Assembly (NCBI GenBank): GCA_010094025.1
Contig: ML991784.1
Span: 419,201-483,200 of the forward strand
DNA: 64,000 bases
Direction of reading: 5' to 3'
Origin: Viridothelium virens
Lineage: Eukaryota > Ascomycota > Dothideomycetes > Trypetheliales > Trypetheliaceae
Shown piece after piece: positions 54,704 through 64,000 of this stretch. The translations under genes and the position numbers were made by a program. Positions within the stretch are counted from its first letter, which is position 1. Each line of letters opens with the position of its first letter. A model generated the notes under the pieces. The model saw only the letters and a program-made list of their open reading frames with translations. It was not told where the DNA came from and searched no databases.

Positions 54704-56639
54704 GACGCAAATGGTTCTAAAAATTGTCAACGTAATCGTCTTGTCGTTAACAAAGCTAGGTATGGTTCTGAGAGCAAATCGCTACCGACAAACCACACTG
54801 TAATACTACATCGGAGAAAGATCATAGTCAGGACAGGATGCATCCATTACTAGTCTAAAGAATACACAGCCTAATCTCATTAGTCCTTCCGACATATTCT
54901 GCATCTGTAGCTTGAGAAGGCCGAGGTCCCCATTGCAGTGTGATTATGTTCTTCTTGTACTGCACACTCTGCAGCTCTCTTACCTTGCTGAGCCTACCTA
55001 TGTACCTCCATTGTCCACATCTTGATTTTTCTCCCATGGTACCGATAGCTTCCTCTTTTTGGCCTCAGGTGTGTTTGAATGCTTGCTTAACAATCCTCTT
55101 CCATATACTTTGTCTATTTCATTGCAGTCAGAAATTGACAAGATTCTCGAGTATGAACATCCGAATCTCGATCTTCGTCTTAGATGCTGGGTGCTAGTTC
55201 GAGGGCAAATTGCTGAGGTGGAGCCGTAGTCATGTCTGGTTGGTAGAGTTGCCTCAATCGTCGATGAATACCTAACAAAAAGTAAGAGGTCAAGAACGAG
55301 CAGAGTTGTCTTGGATTAGAGCGTACCAAATTCGTGAACTTGTTTCCCAATTATTAGGACATCTCCGTTTCCTGTATGAATCGTTTGAGTTGACCAGACT
55401 TGCAGAGTCACTCCACGCTACTCTTCTTGGCCATAGTTGATATTCAGCCAAGTGATAGCTCGCACGCTGGCATTCGAGTACAAAGTAGCAGAAAATCTTT
55501 CATTCGACGATATGGAACGTCCAGATCCAGGTTTTGAGGGTTAGCAGCTCCTGTAGTGTCCATCCTTGCGCAAACTATCGACTGTTGCAAAAACTGGACT
55601 CACATTTCACGTCGACATATTTGCCGTCTCGTGCATGAATGGGACATTCGATAGGTACGCGTAGCAGTTTACTGTATTTTCATACCACATAAACATAGAA
55701 TTTTAGCTGTTGTCAACTCCTCGTTGTTCGATTCGTCAATTTCTGTTGTGGTGAGAGATTGGAGCGCGATCCTGTCACGTGATACCCCCAACGCGTGGTG
55801 GTCCCGTCTGGAGTTGCCCCACTCAATTCAATGAAACAAAGGCTGTCGTTAATTTTTGGGAATCCTGTTCCTGACAGTAAACCAGACATAACAGAAACCT
55901 TTCCAAAGCGCTTTTGCTCACCTGAAATTCGCGAAAATTGTTGAGAGGCAGCACCGTTGGGTATCTTTTGGTAGTTGTTACAGTCATGTGAAAGAAGTGT
56001 CCGCTCGCTGGCGCGGGAAAATTGCTGGGGGTTGCTCGAACGATTTTGTTATGGTACGGAGGTAATACTCCGTACTGTATCCCTTCATTGTACTCCGTAC
56101 TACCTACCTACCTTATCTAGCGAATAGAACAGAAACGCGTCCACTTCCTCTATATACCGTGCGCCGAATCCGAAGAGTCTAAGTCCGTCGAAAGACGATG
56201 TCTGTCTGGCTGGGCCCAACGAGAAAATGATCCAGGTTGCGCCGCCGAACATACCTATTAAGTACTCTACCGCCCAGCGAGCCAGCAAGGCTACCATGAA
56301 CTTCCACGAAAAAAGCTCCAACAGTATTCTGCAAACGCAATCCAAATGTGCGAAGCCATTTCTTCCAGGGATCGGCGTCCACCACCCCCATGAACTCAAT
56401 AACGCTTCGACCGAGGATATTGTGCCCGGGAAGCTGCATGAACTGGGAGGAAGAATTACGGCCTCTTGTTATTTACGCAACCATCTCGCCGTATGCCTTT
56501 TTTCGTTCTGCAAGTTCCGTGCATGAATTGTACCTTGGAAAGCCAGACGGAAGTTGCTCATTGGCTCGTTAGTCTGGACCTTAGCATGAGTCTGTTCTGG
56601 TATGCTCAAAGTCGAGTAGTCCGCAGTATAAAAATTTGC
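54704..56639. other. Gene-poor stretch between two pseudogenes
   Basis: About 1.9 kb with only short open frames. Three TACTCCGTA-type motifs cluster at 56054-56101. A minus-strand frame at 56100-56399 contains hydrophobic segments but no recognisable family. Confidence 0.4.
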
Positions 56640-57850
56640 ACTATGCATTGAATACTGCTCAAGAAGATCTGATGCTGTTCTCGGGGAAATTTCGACGCAC
56701 TTCGAATACAGTCCACTTGATCGTGAGAGGAACGAGATACGCTTGCTTCGATTCGATAACACTGCAAGCCTCAAAGAACCCATCAGTTTGCATCTCATAC
56801 ACGCTACGCTGGATAATCAGCTCATATACACGGCGCTTTCATACACCTGAGGCGGTAGCGATGGATCAAGAAGCATAAATCTGTTAGGCCATGACTTTCC
56901 GATTACCGAGAATCTATTTCAACCTCTTCGCTCTCTCAACAAGGACTTGAACAACGATACAGGAGCGGGCGATAAGTATTGATATATTTGGATCAACAGC
57001 ATCTCTATTAGTCAGGATGACATCTTAGAGCGGCATCACGAAGTCACCCGCATGGCCGAGATTTATCATTTCGCGACTCACGTGTTCATCTGACTCAGAG
57101 AGGATTCGCATGATCGTGTTCTTGTAAATTACTATCTCCACTACCTTGTGCGAAATTCTACATGGGACAGCAAGATTACGGTGCCTCATCGAACCCTCGG
57201 CTTCTTGAAGGAACTCCCTGCTTTGAGTTGCTGCTTTATGTAGCGCCGGTGTCTATACTCTCTACCAAACACCTATCGTCCAAGTCATGCTTTTGTCATG
57301 GGCAGCCTCGAGATTCAACGCTACATGGGATGTGAAATGGCTTCCGCTTCTGGGAGCTGTGCTGCAATATTCCTTTCGACTAAAAAAAAATATATCACTA
57401 GCCAGAGACAGACGTCGTCAAGGCACTCCAGAACTTCTTCAAGCGACCTTGGTTCTATAGGATCTGGATTATGCAAGAAGTAAAAATGACACGAAAAACA
57501 ACCATCTTCTATGGAGACGACATCACCCCATGGGAGGATCTCTGTACAGCGTGCCGGCAGGTGTAGCATATTGTTAACAGGACCTCAGAAAGAAGTCCTT
57601 ATCTTGACACGCATCATCGGATCGCGACTGGTCTTCAGCTCTACTCACGAGCGACGCCTGCTGCCAACTGGTGTAGACGTGCTGCAGCTCCTCGAAGAGA
57701 CCTCTATTCACTTCTCGTTCAGTAATCAATGCGCATTACCACAACAGCGCATTAAGTACATTTACGCGTCTGTATGTAATCAAACCACGATAAAAATTCT
57801 ATCAACATTCGTAACAAAATCTAATTACTTACTTATTTCAATTAATTAAT
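56640..57850 (+). pseudogene. HET-domain (heterokaryon incompatibility) pseudogene
   Basis: The HET domain is readable in one frame from about 56644 to 57240: YSPLDRERNEIRLLRFD, IYTALSYT-stop-GGS, INLLGHDFPITENLFQPLR, YIWINSISISQDDILERHHE, VTRMAEIYHFATHVFI-stop-L. The stops are at 56848 (TGA), 56980 (TGA), 57091 (TGA) and 57241 (TAG). The first replaces the invariant Trp of the SYxWG motif and the third replaces the Trp of the usual VWL; both are TGG to TGA changes. After a frame change, the other end of the domain appears at 57432-57566: NFFKRPWFYRIWIMQEVKMT and TTIFYGDDITPWEDLCTACR. HET proteins trigger cell death when incompatible hyphae fuse. This copy cannot make an intact protein. Confidence 0.85.
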
Positions 57851-57892: not shown

Positions 57893-59815
57893 TTAATATA
57901 ATGGCCATTCTTCTTGATTCCGTTCCATAACGAGATACAGATCTTGAAAATCATTGCTCTGTCTTCGATCATTAACCGAAAGATCCACTAAATTACCATA
58001 CTCAGTTCTTTGTACTGTTAGAATTTTGACACCAGATCCAACTTCTCGAGCCAATTTCACGAAACTGTTTGATATGCCCTGTCGAACCAAATTTTGTTTT
58101 GTACAAAGCTCTGGTCTATCAATCACGATCAGTAATGGCTCTGGCAGTGCTTGAACTACTCGAATAAGTACTCTGAGTACAGTCTCTGCGTCGCTGCTTC
58201 TTGACAATTGAGTACTCATGTGGTTATCATCCTCTTTACTCCACCATTGATGAGCGCTCTTCTCAAGGATCTGAAACAGTATGGAAGAGAGGACATGCTT
58301 GTGGGTACTTTCGTCGTCGCAGAGAAAATATGCAATCATTTGCTGAGATTTCTGTGCACTTTGTATCATGTGAATTGCAACAGGTGAGAGCCAAGAATTA
58401 CGTTCGATGGTTAGACGATGATGATTGCTGCCACGGCTAACCAGAACAGGGGCACTCGCCGCTCTCCAACGCTTGTATTCTTCTGCCGATTCGAGATCCG
58501 AGATACGGAAGGCAAATGGACGCCTCGGTGGCGAGAAGCTGTTTTCCAATAAAAGCTCATATGTCCGAAGCTTGTCTTCTCTTTCCTCGTGGGTCAATTC
58601 TTTAACTGCTAGTGTGTTTCGCAACTGAGCAATTCTGGAGCTAACTTGAAGCGCTTTTAAATCTAGCAGCAGTGAGTAGAAGGCTATTTCCAGTGAGAGA
58701 ACACACCTCTATTTTCCTCTTCAAGGGTTGCTAATTTTATTATTATCTCGTCATTCTGGTTCTTGATCTTCTCATTCAGGTTCTGAAGTGATAAAACTTG
58801 GCCTGCGAAAAGGGCATCGCAACGATGATGAACAACAATTAATCGCTGACGTATCGTGTCTTCGGAAGACTGAAATTTGTACGGTCGTCCAAGAGCGTGA
58901 CCCACTCGCTCTACATGTAACATTGTTAAGACAATTTACTTTAAGAATAAGCTCGACGTACCGAAACCATGGCCCAAGAGATATATAGTAGCCTCTCGAC
59001 CAAAGAGAATAACGTTCTTGTAGACTTCCGACAGAAGCCGGCCTAATTCTTGGTCCGGATATACTCTATTGTATACTTCGAGATTCGGCAGCGCCTCAGT
59101 AATATTCTTGAAGCATCTCTGAAGATGTTCCTCGGCTTCTGTTTTGTTCTTGACAATCTAATACATTTCGTTAACTTTGGAGCACCATTTTAATACTTGA
59201 AAGGGATAACTTACCGCGAAGAGCAATGAGAATGTTGATGAAGCGATGTTGCCATATTGTGAATCTGCGTTCTTCAAAATATCAACCAATCCCCCATACG
59301 CGACCAAAAAGTCAGAGAAAAGCTTGGCAAACTCTTGAAAAGGAGTCGAAACATATTTGCGCAAACCTCTATGTCTCTTCCTCACAAGCTCAGAGCTTGC
59401 TTCAGTGATATCTTGAACACTGTTGGCTACGTAAAGTTCTAGATCGTCCAACGAAGCGGTATTCAAGGAGTTCAAGAGGATATTCTGCGTCGATTGTGTA
59501 GACGTGCTTTCCTTCTTGCTTGCCGCAAAGGATTCTGCAAGGTCAGACTTGACGGAATTGCCGAGTCTAGGGAGAATCTGTAGAAAATTTCGATGATCTT
59601 TTCGAACCTTTCGCGCCTCTTCGAGTTCTCCACTATTATCGCATAGTTAGTAGTTATACATCGAGTTGCTCGTCAGAACACGACGCGCGCTTAGCAAACG
59701 CATCAGCACGTGTACAGGCTTAGAACACTATGAGGTAGGTATTTTACCTTTCCTGACCATTTGGAAACCAAGTTTTCCAGCCTGAAGGACCGGGCGAAGC
59801 TGCACCACCATCCAT
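57893..59815 (-). CDS. DUF7708/STAND-like protein without P-loop
   Basis: Five exons on the minus strand: 59748-59815, 59215-59632, 58962-59157, 58707-58910 and 57893-58662, giving 551 residues with no stop or frameshift. Introns are 115, 57, 51 and 44 nt. An N-terminal helical DUF7708-like domain covers about 60-215 (LRKYVSTPFQEFAKLFSDFL, then EALPNLEVYNRVYPDQELGR). A coiled coil follows (LNEKIKNQNDEIIIKLATLE). The C-terminal half resembles the NACHT-type NTPase core of fungal NLR-like proteins, but where the Walker A loop should lie the sequence is LVSRGSNHHRLTIERNSWL, with no GK[S/T]. PLLIVIDRPELC keeps the look of Walker B. No ankyrin, WD40 or TPR repeats follow. Related fungal proteins lacking the P-loop exist to my memory. 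Role inferred: self/non-self or stress signalling. Confidence 0.72.
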
Positions 59816-60919
59816 TTGGAATCTTAGCACTCTCCGAACCCTTGCTCTTTTTGATGTTTGGGGTTGAAGCCTACTCTTGATCGATCGATTGGATTCTGCA
59901 AAGTACTCTTGGATTACAATTCAATCTATAGGCCGCGTCATCGTACGATCTGCATTAAAGTCTTGGAGAATCAAGGTTCCAGGCCATCGCTTGCCTTTTT
60001 CTCAGCGAGCTCGACGGGGCTGCCTTGTGCTATCTCCAGTTAAGGAAGGTTTGTAATCTTGAAACCAGGGCGCGTTCATCAAGCGATGGATTACGCCTTT
60101 TTCGCATCCAGACCATGAGCTGAACGATAGGAAAGCCACCGGTCTGCATTAAAAATTACATGTTTCGATCACTATTGTCTCGGATGTGTTACCGCTTGCA
60201 GCGACAATAGATAAGCGCGTACCCGCCGAGCTCCGCACATCCCGTTCGAGGCTTGGAGGTATCCAATAACAAGTCCAAGCATTGCGATGATCAGATGCGC
60301 CACCTTGATGAATAGGGCACTCGGGTATGCTCAGCTCAAGCAGACGGCTGATGCTTTACGTGTATAAGGCTGAAATGTCACATTGCAACACATTTCGGAG
60401 TATCAAATCTGCATGTGGCGCGGTCTGGCTTGAATCTATATCGGAGACGGCCAAGATTCGCAGACATGATAGGTGAGTACAAGCAGCATTGCAATATACT
60501 ATTTCCTTGTGGAATCTCTCAGGAGGTCTGCCAACTCAGCTCAGGAGGCTACCACTGGATGTGAGTCTTGAGATACGAGAACAAGGCGACAAGACTAACG
60601 CTCCTTTTTATCGAGGCAGAGATTACTATTCAGCTGAAGCCACATAGATAACAAAATACGATAGGGGAGATAATGGCCTTCCTGTTCCGTTGTGTCCGAT
60701 AATCTCCAGATTTCATCGACATTGACGCGAATAGAGATTAAAGGTACAAAAGACGACGCCGCTCCTACCTAGAATAATATCGGATAAGATATAGTAATAC
60801 ACTATTAGATTTTGAGCTTCTGTTATCTTTTTATAACTTTGCAATGGCTGACGATGGAGTTAAAAAGGTACTTCTTACATTCGATTTCTTGAAAATGACT
60901 TCGACTGATGTACAATAAG
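59816..60919. other. Divergent intergenic region
   Basis: About 1.1 kb between the STAND-like gene and the AAA pseudogene, which point away from each other. It should contain both promoters. No other gene is seen. Confidence 0.45.
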
Positions 60920-63478
60920 ATGGCGGCCTCACCCAACGAAATCACAACTGAGCTTGATACGCACTGGGTCAAAGCGCTCGAGGCAAGGATCGAGCAATTG
61001 GAAGCTAAAATCAGTTCGATGCCAAGAAAATCGATCAAGTACTCTTTCCATTTCAAACTTCCGCGAAATGGATTGAGCTAATAGCAGGTAGCTTAGCGTT
61101 GGTGGGGATAAGAAAGTCAGCATTGTAGTTGAGGAGAATACTGCGGTACCTTCAACCGATAATGCGAACAGCGAGGACGCGAAAAGCGTTGTATGTATCA
61201 GGATTATGTGTGGCTTGACATTACAATGCTGAGATACGTTTAGGATGGCGACAATACAGCAGCAAATACCGACGATCAGAAAGCAGGCAAAGGAAAGGGT
61301 GAAAAGGTGAATATTGAGACGAAGCTGGAGCCAAGATACAAACTGGTTATCAGCAAATGGAGTGAGGAGAAGCTAGAGCGGTACGATAAGCTTATTAGCA
61401 ACGAGGACCGGGAGGAAGTTATCGAGGAGGATAAGGCAGTTGAGACCCAACGCGCGTTCACCTTCCGAAAGGTGCAGTCCCGCGACGATTCGTCTATCGA
61501 CTATTCTGAGGTCATAATAGAGTCACAGGCTCTTCAGGATCTTCTCAACAGTGTTACGGAAGATACGCTTGGCTCTTTCACTTGGAGGTCCATGCGTTCG
61601 CCCTTCACCGGTCTTGTACAGGTGTGAACTAAGGCTGAGGAGGAAGCTAACAAGATCTGCGATGAATCAGAACAGTTCAAAACAGCCCGAGTAGACTTGA
61701 AAGAGCTCTTGCGAGTCATTTCATCTTCTTCGGGTGTCGACATTTTGGACAGGTATTTCAGAGATCGACCACAGCTTCTAAAAGACAAGAAGATCACATT
61801 CGAAGCTCTTTTTACCCTCTTTCCTCCTGGAAAACTAATTATCGCAAAACCATTCATGAACACAGAACAAGTGTTTTTCGTAATGAAGAATATCCCTTCT
61901 TCTATAGATGATGAGGTGTTCGAAGTCATCTGTTATACTCTTGACTGGGACGGGGAAAACTTCCTACGAGTACCGTATGAAATGAGGATCGAGTTTTTCG
62001 ATAATACCAAGGATATCGCTGAGCTCCCTTTTTATCCACTAGAGTATTATACTTCTGAAGGTGGTATCGAAGCATTGCGCAGACGCTTACAAAATAGAGG
62101 CGTTCGATGGCGGGAACTTTGCACTGCGTCGCGAGGTAAACAGATGTTTACATACAAGGGGCCTGCGTATTCCCAGAGAAATGCAGGCATATTTCGACCG
62201 AATATTCCAGGGTCCGCTCCCTCGGACTCTGATTCTGGCATGTTCAACGGGCGATCGTCTCTTGGGGATTTTGACGTCTCCGACCAAATGGCAAGATTCA
62301 CTCGTTTTGATGTGCGAAAAACTTCAGTGAATCATGAGATCGAGCTAATAGATATGGTCTAGGTCCAGGGCACCGTCATTATAGACTTCCGGTCTTATTA
62401 CTCCTACCAGACAGATTCGGCGCCACTTCTGGGTGAAATGCGTCGTTGGACTGGAATGCCGGTCTCTGACTGCACAGCTTGTCGAAGTGATCCCTGGAGG
62501 AAGAAGACTTATCGTTTTGATTGGGATCGTATCACTCCGAGGAGGAAGTTGACGAACGAACAAGCTCTCTGCTGTCCACCACGAGTTCTCGGGTACTCAA
62601 TGGAAAAGAAGAAATGGATGCAACTTCATGTGGACAATGTGAAGGACTGGTCACTCTCCAGCAAGAACAACGTCTTTGAGAAGGATCTACAGCTCGATCA
62701 AAATTATAAAGACTTAATTCAAAAATCGGTTAAGTCTCACGAGACCACGAAAGAGCAAAACAGAGGCATTGACGACTTTGCTGAAGGCAAGGGCAAGGGC
62801 TTAGTAATATTACTCTACGGTACGCGTTTCACTTTCTGAGACATATCAGTACTGATAGTTTTTAGGGGCTCCCGGCGTTGGTAAGACGCTGACAGCAGAA
62901 AGCGTAGCTACCCTAGCCCGTAAACCACTTTTCCCGGTCGGAGTCTCTGACATTGGCATCGATGGTCAGAATGTTGAAACACATCTACAGAGAGTCTTCG
63001 ATTTAGCAGGTCTCTGGGAAGCTGTGCTGCTGTTGTACGCTGCGCTGTATCAAGCATGAAAGTCTTTCCTGACGCAATAATAGTGATGAGGCCGACGTCT
63101 TTCTCGAAGCTCGGGGCGAGGGAATTTCCGACTTGCGAAGAAACACCATGGTTTCAGGTATTCCATTCATCTCCCCCCTTTTTTCCCCTTACTGACTGGA
63201 TGAGATTTGCTGCGTGTGCTTGAGTACTACGAAGGAATTCTCATTTTGACTACAAACCGCTTGAGATCTTTCGACATTGCTGTTCAAAGTCGGATCCGTA
63301 AGCATTCATTCTTGATCACATGATTCAATTGGCATTATTTATAACTCTTCCACATCAGACCTAGCAATCAAGTACGTGCTGAAAGTGATTTGGACCCTAA
63401 GCTGGAACCCAAACATCTCAGTATTGTTGCTACACAAACCGCAAAATTCCAGAAGGAATTGGTTTCGGTCGACGTAAT
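60920..63478 (+). pseudogene. AAA+ ATPase (fungal DUF7025-AAA family), two stops and lost C-terminus
   Basis: Seven exons can be laid out: 60920-61038, 61097-61190, 61244-62819, 62866-63034, 63084-63157, 63205-63297 and 63359-63478. All six introns have GT-AG borders and keep phase. An N-terminal coiled coil (WVKALEARIEQLEAKIS) precedes a long DUF7025-like region (DYSEVIIESQALQDLLNSV, then LEYYTSEGGIEALRRRLQNR). The AAA core is intact: Walker A YGAPGVGKTLTAESVA, Walker B VLLFDEADVFLEARG, sensor LILTTNRLRSFD, and SRIHLAIKY. Exon 3 is interrupted by TGA at 61625 (context VQV-stop-TKAEEE) and TAG at 62360 (IDMV-stop-VQG). The AAA lid is missing: soon after HLAIKY the frame runs off and stops at 63476, while a neighbouring frame carries the lid-like LDPKLEPKHLSIVATQ. 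Confidence 0.8.
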
Positions 63479-63740
63479 CTATCGAAATCAACAAATCACG
63501 AAAGTGCAACGATAACCTGATCTTCCAAACCACGCATGCTTTTATTGACTGCGGTACAGTACTACTGCTATAGTATTTATCTACTTTGCCATCTCTGTTT
63601 CGCGGAGGAATACACGAGGATACAAAGGACGTATTTCTAATACCCTCTGTTATTCTGATAAAGACTTTCTTTTGATTCTATTCTCTAACCTATATGGGGC
63701 AAACAACTCTTATAAGGATCGTTTGCTTTTGTTAGTAAAA

Positions 63741-63755
63741 TAGGGTTAGGGTTAG
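63741..63755 (+). repeat. Short interstitial telomere-type repeat (TAGGGT)n
   Basis: TAGGGTTAGGGTTAG, two and a half units of the usual filamentous-fungal telomere repeat TTAGGG. It is not at the window end and not a long array, so it is interstitial. Confidence 0.7.
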
Positions 63756-63767
63756 CACGACATGGGG

Positions 63768-63793
63768 TAGAGTTGTTTGGTAGAGTTGTTTGC
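63768..63793 (+). repeat. 13-bp direct repeat with inverted partner
   Basis: TAGAGTTGTTTGG followed directly by TAGAGTTGTTTGC. The inverse complement CAAACAACTCT occurs at 63700-63710, so the telomere-type repeat lies between inverted arms. Confidence 0.75.
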
Positions 63794-64000
63794 TTTTAAC
63801 CTCGTCTAAATCACTCCAAATTTTAACAGCTGATAGAGTGAGCTGAACTGAGTATTTTTTATTAATTATCCACTATCATAAATTCGTTTCTTTAATGAGA
63901 AAAATAGTAATTAAGGTCAGAATCAAATTTTTTTAATGGGGTGATGCGGCCGCATAGCTGTACCATGCGATGGGCTGAGTCAGCAGCAACTACCGCAGTT

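Follow-up and report, generated by a model that had tools for sequence, protein, structure and literature searches.

A subfamily of P-loop-less DUF7708 genes adjoining DUF7025/AAA_lid_13 ATPase genes in the fungus Viridothelium virens

What could be the role of an intact gene for a STAND-like protein (STAND, signal transduction ATPases with numerous domains) that lacks the nucleotide-binding P-loop and lies among decayed neighbors? The question is raised by a DUF7708 gene on the minus strand, at positions 57893-59815, of a 64,000-nucleotide stretch of Viridothelium virens DNA (contig ML991784.1, positions 419,201-483,200; hereafter, the window), which is the last part of a contig of 483,200 bases in a genome of 30.7 Mb. 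The sequence-only reading that preceded this analysis took the gene for a nucleotide-independent or decoy-like protein kept by selection while the surrounding genes fell apart. We found that it belongs to a subfamily of DUF7708 genes with a pseudo-NACHT domain devoid of the P-loop, and that all 17 members found of this subfamily adjoin a gene for an AAA+ ATPase of the DUF7025/AAA_lid_13 type. All counts, trees and pairings given below pertain to this one genome. The earlier interpretation is partly supported; it overlooked that the AAA neighbor is of the type found beside all 17 members.

The gene is read from 59815 to 57893 as five joined exons that yield 551 codons and a stop in frame, with fitting donors and acceptors, as previously described. 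Exon 1 (59748-59815) opens with the start codon at 59815; exon 2 (59215-59632) encodes the N-terminal region and the beginning of DUF7708, exon 3 (58962-59157) the core of this domain, exon 4 (58707-58910) its end together with a helical linker resembling a coiled coil (the latter judged by eye), and exon 5 (57893-58662) the rest of the linker, the P-loop-less NACHT/NPHP3_N-like domain and the stop codon. The four donors are AAG/GTAAAA, GCG/GTAAGT, TCG/GTACGT and GAG/GTGTGT (slashes mark the exon ends), all four acceptors are TAG, and intron 4 is short, at 44 nucleotides. The 255 codons of exon 5 stayed open in none of 20,000 sequences simulated under a first-order Markov model.

A Pfam search of the predicted protein identified DUF7708 (PF24809) at residues 125-252 (1.6e-22; 80.4 bits against a cut-off of 25), which corresponds to positions 58837-59328 of the minus strand, across introns (here and for the two motifs below, the coordinates were counted by hand). 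The NACHT-type core NPHP3_N was detected barely above its cut-off at residues 391-511 (1.8e-5; 25.4 versus 24.8 bits; 58016-58378, minus strand), so that both the DUF7708-like domain and the NACHT-like character of the nucleoside triphosphatase (NTPase)-like region hold. The latter match spans profile positions 39-161 of 164 and therefore starts past the P-loop. Where Walker A would be expected (58397-58432, minus strand), the protein reads GSNHHRLTIERN, and the motif GxxxxGK[S/T] was found neither in the protein nor, past the end of DUF7708, in the frames of the gene strand. A P-loop hidden in another frame is ruled out because all gene-strand frames of 57893-59900 lack both GK[S/T] and GxxxxGK; an exon junction inside the motif is still conceivable. 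The strand IVID, with its Walker-B look, is present at 58118-58129 (minus strand). Compared with the consensus hhhhD[GAS]hDE that a part of PMC12258605 gives for the Walker B motif of NACHT/STAND NTPases, the window sequence LLIVIDRPELC has the first aspartate, whereas the canonical DE pair is gone (IDRPELC). As also stated before, no repeat domain follows: the Pfam scan detected no repeat family (ANK, WD40, TPR, HEAT), and the protein ends at 57893, so that 38 residues remain after the last core strand, where fungal NLRs have a helical third domain (HETHS).

Structural searches added little. The AlphaFold model of exon 5 alone has a mean predicted local distance difference test score (pLDDT) of 48.6, too weak to count, and we gave no weight either to the Foldseek search with this model, in which the top rows were Cdc6/ORC proteins and no match had E <= 0.001, or to its rank 12, 8bob_C (maltose system), which we take to be the STAND protein MalT. 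Among solved structures, the best E value was 0.6 for the window protein. For profile A1, no value was better than 0.12, and two NLRP9 chains had 0.19 and 0.20.

The missing P-loop turned out to be shared. The 30 DUF7708 matches in the genome were merged by eye into 26 genes, including C41b and C12, which score under the family cut-off. The complete DUF7708-family set consists of 28 genes, with the addition of diverged C28, found through a protein search, and C46b, found via its AAA neighbor and counted for its NPHP3_N match, its place in the tree with C12 (95/89) and that neighbor. The build of the window gene, namely, an N-terminal part, a helical linker and a NACHT-like domain without a P-loop, is seen in 17 of the 28 (weakly in C28 and C46b), and not one of these 17 has a P-loop. 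Hence its absence is no defect of the window copy, which bears out the earlier suggestion that the loss might characterize a whole subfamily. By contrast, a P-loop is present in all ten DUF7708 genes without an AAA neighbor, in one only partly; in C4 and C54 its reading crosses an intron, C154 shows only AGSGKT, in another frame, and in C29, GMGGVGKT lies 213 bases past DUF7708 in an unjoined frame. P-loop-less DUF7708 proteins seem to be common in Pezizomycotina. In a viral collection, 19 stretches fit a pattern, and none was confirmed.

The pseudo-NACHT domain of the subfamily is homologous to the NACHT/NPHP3_N domain. NPHP3_N matches 11 of the 15 scanned P-loop-less members at E up to 0.1, and a profile of these 15 aligned with five P-loop-containing copies from the same genome at an hhalign probability of 98.6% (E 1.3e-15, 167 columns). 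The other 14 share 13-20% identity with the window sequence. Among 16 members measured (C28 left out), 15 are alike in that the reading frame stops 34-77 residues past the last core strand; the exception is C2a, where it continues for 147 residues. By our own count, the first Walker-B aspartate is present in 14 of the 17 members, with a glutamate in one; the DE pair is found in none of them, although each of the eight P-loop copies included in the tree has it, and many members show no clear counterpart of the SSR-strand arginine. In six pairs compared, the proportion of synonymous differences (pS) is 0.75-0.86 versus 0.40-0.54 for nonsynonymous differences (pN); the synonymous sites are saturated because the pairs are so old. 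This contrast argues that the family has long been constrained, and does not bear on the recent past of the window copy: with pS saturated, the ratio of nonsynonymous to synonymous substitution rates (dN/dS) is impossible to obtain for this copy, and the earlier suggestion of selection acting on it is not supported by these pairs.

NPHP3_N genes as such are abundant in the genome (128 matches at about 111 gene places). In some 10 of them, the match breaks in two around profile positions 34-42, where the P-loop lies, as though an intron recurred there.

The other component of the locus is a family of AAA+ ATPases with the architecture DUF7025, AAA, AAA_lid_13. After merging by eye, 26 DUF7025 matches correspond to 25 genes and 25 AAA_lid_13 matches to 20 genes; the union encompasses 26 AAA genes, including C9 (lid above the cut-off, DUF7025 below it), with weaker AAA relatives (C25, C21, C31, C127 and others) kept outside this set. 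The AAA sequence itself was read for the window, C2a (in part), C2b and C9, the remaining pairings being taken from match coordinates. A DUF7708-family gene adjoins 18 of the 26 AAA genes, with 1.3-4.0 kb between the matches, and 17 of the 20 AAA_lid_13 genes. Of these 18 pairs, 17 are divergent and one (C2b) is convergent; all 17 P-loop-less genes adjoin an AAA gene within 1.3-4.0 kb, 16 of them back to back. Conversely, the P-loop is missing in 17 of the 18 AAA-adjacent DUF7708-family genes and in 0 of the 10 non-adjacent ones (Fisher test, 8.4e-7; 2.1e-6 without C46b and C28), a value that is no count of independent events because the tree can be explained by one change of P-loop state. As a control, only 7 of the 111 NPHP3_N gene places have one of the 26 AAA genes within 6 kb, and all seven are inside the set of 18.

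Given this arrangement, we favor, with slightly better than even confidence, the reading of a two-gene module in which the DUF7708 gene encodes the nucleotide-free part and the divergently transcribed DUF7025/AAA_lid_13 gene would supply an AAA+ motor dedicated to it; their joint function is inferred. The two proteins would assemble into a complex, with ATP bound and hydrolyzed by the AAA+ partner, the NACHT-like domain would now be a mere docking or switch surface, and the DUF7708 protein could act as an adaptor, sensor or executor. Such a division of labor is the simplest reading because the AAA protein of C2b, the sole one read through the whole core, retains GGPGTGKT and LLLDEADVF, whereas the STAND-like partner has neither the P-loop nor the DE pair; that the window protein works without nucleotide is a fair reading of its motifs. 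The likely setting, judged from kinship with DUF7708-NACHT receptors and from that kinship alone, is non-self recognition or control of cell death. The sequence-only reading had instead proposed a decoy, and the loss of the P-loop combined with retention of the first Walker-B aspartate in 14 members would indeed suit a decoy or regulatory dead receptor that works alone; there is, however, no evidence of a target or of mimicry, and the AAA neighbor is left unexplained, so that we regard this possibility as decidedly improbable.

The kinship of the two partners agrees in part. In the tree of NACHT-like domains (25 rows; the trees do not include C29, C4 and C154), C2b, C50, C7 and C9 group together (100/98), as do C1, C16, C24, C55, C37, C91 and C28 (97/96). 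Among the partners, the AAA of C9 is closest to those of C7, C80 and C50, and that of C2b to those of C7 (55%) and C80 (54%). The window gene matches, besides itself, just C2a and C41a below E 0.001, and the AAA closest to that of the window is the one of C41a, at 40%.

Several observations weigh against the module. The AAA of C2a matches those of C91 and C44 ahead of those of C41a and C14, in each case weakly. The 25-row tree permits one change of P-loop state (86/94), so a single P-loop loss is allowed by this tree, and the association between P-loop absence and the AAA neighbor may go back to one old event followed by long retention; in a 20-row tree built without the P-loop columns, two changes would be needed for the P-loop genes, with poor support. 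Eight of the 26 AAA genes lack a recognized DUF7708 neighbor, and on the divergent side of the three unpaired ones that were read (C62, C44:5983, C80) no partner was found. At C3 (500000-505500), a canonical NLR (nucleotide-binding oligomerization domain-like receptor) with APPGAGKT and a 1337-residue frame has a divergent AAA neighbor, possibly an intermediate or a re-pairing, and once weaker AAA relatives are counted, the canonical place C127:5430 also falls within 6 kb. The membership of two genes is weak, C28 reaching 22.3 of the 25 bits required for DUF7708 and the pieces of C46b showing no DUF7708 match by profile, and the window copy itself has an arginine (VQR) aligned with the SSR-strand arginine of canonical copies. 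Finally, as detailed below, the AAA gene of the window is probably broken.

One alternative is linkage without joint function, under which a block-duplicated pair simply stayed together and the pseudo-NACHT protein acts independently, for example, as an oligomer scaffold. The compatibility of the tree with a single origin and the ability of a canonical NLR to occupy the same place, as in C3, are in its favor. Yet, at only 13-20% identity to the window sequence (14 members compared) and with synonymous sites saturated, 17 of 17 members still have the neighbor within 4 kb, and 104 of the 111 NPHP3_N places lack such an AAA gene within 6 kb. We consider mere linkage unlikely.

The window locus itself is in a mixed state. 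The divergent AAA+ neighbor (60846-63380, plus strand; the gene borders are a reading) comprises DUF7025 at 61772-62050 (plus strand; 6.5e-22) and an AAA stretch with the Walker A motif APGVGKT at 62862-63041 (plus strand; 3.7e-5). It contains an in-frame TGA at 61625-61627, with no plausible intron seen, and a second stop at 62360-62362 that, by our reading, may fall in a short intron; the genome search with AAA_lid_13 detected no lid domain at this gene. On the other side lies a HET gene relic (56632-57090, extended to 57400 in a wider reading, plus strand; the borders beyond the profile match are a reading), broken by stops, of which a 36-residue piece between stops, at 56983-57090, matches HET with 8.8e-9. 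The ruined neighbors reported earlier are thus real with respect to HET, whereas the AAA gene, with DUF7025 and Walker A present, is only partly ruined. Repeat-induced point mutation was rejected as the cause of the decay, the dinucleotide indices being unremarkable and those of the relic no different from the rest of the window. Past the AAA gene, a dispersed repeat, possibly subtelomeric, occupies 63683-63998 (plus strand), just before the contig end at 64000, and matches five other contigs at 82-99% (C53 at 99%; C89, C159, C74 and C95 at 82-91%); within it, at 63741-63755, there is a telomere-repeat-like stretch of 15 bases, TAGGGTTAGGGTTAG. At the opposite end of the window, at 588-1148, an AAA-like stretch within a 1119-residue open frame shares 30% identity with the AAA of C2b.

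The HET relic, the in-frame stop and missing lid of the AAA neighbor, and the dispersed repeat at the contig end would all fit a young pseudogene, situated where the end of the contig is decaying. Against this, the 551 codons and four introns are intact, and the dinucleotide indices of the gene (TA/AT 0.76, (CA+TG)/(AC+GT) 1.20) are close to those of the rest of the window, which makes a pseudogene rather improbable to us. In the window, the AAA member of the pair is probably broken, and the DUF7708 member is intact. Under the two-gene module, the apparent damage to the AAA half implies that the intact half is orphaned, is served by an AAA paralog elsewhere, or is being lost; the window copy may, accordingly, be an orphaned half.

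The nucleotide switch is a defining trait of STAND proteins, and a large subfamily without the switch, adjacent to an AAA+ gene each time in this genome, would show its relocation to a partner. On this basis, one can tentatively envisage, at a probability that we put well short of even, a split receptor in 17 copies in which the ATPase cycle of a STAND-like protein has been handed over to a separate, back-to-back AAA+ motor. If this is true, recognition or execution and the use of energy sit in two proteins. Moreover, DUF7708 and DUF7025, two Pfam domains of unknown function, gain a common and testable context, and an odd single gene becomes a rule that can be checked across other fungal genomes. 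The literature search, with subscription papers and preprints outside its scope, returned no paper under DUF7708, DUF7025 or pseudo-ATPase, and among the papers listed for NLR, P-loop, pairs and AAA, no title or abstract opening describes the pair.

The closest known systems are fungal NLR/STAND proteins with a DUF7708 N-terminus and a NACHT (NPHP3_N) core, which have the same domain order and profile homology over 167 columns; unlike these, the proteins described here have no P-loop, no Walker-B DE pair and no repeats, and are encoded next to an AAA gene. Recurrent variation of the P-loop in fungal nucleotide-binding oligomerization domain (NOD) regions is noted in a part of Dyrka et al. 2014 (PMC4986451); compared with the noncanonical variants mentioned there, here the entire motif is lost across a subfamily. 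Adjacency and retention of STAND and partner genes resemble the het-s/nwd2 and sesA/sesB/STAND clusters, in which, according to a section of PMC3321046, such genes are adjacent, often divergent and evolutionarily retained. Since het-s/nwd2 are adjacent divergent genes with unlike partners, a killer-antidote or incompatibility pair, with one partner restraining the other and linkage under selection, can be envisaged as well; many diverged pairs within one genome are at odds with it, and we consider it highly improbable. In the het-s/nwd2 and sesA/sesB/STAND clusters, as that section describes them, a prion-like motif is common to the STAND protein and its partners, whereas here the partner is an ATPase and the STAND-like protein lacks the P-loop. 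The arrangement is also similar to the head-to-head NLR pairs of plants in that the neighboring genes are divergent in 17 of the 18 AAA-adjacent cases. In the part of PMC9528088 that deals with such pairs, mutation of the sensor P-loop leaves RGA4/RGA5 and RRS1/RPS4 active, and both P-loops are required in Pik-1/Pik-2; the pairs covered there consist of two NLRs, whereas the partner in the pairs described here is an AAA+ ATPase of another family.
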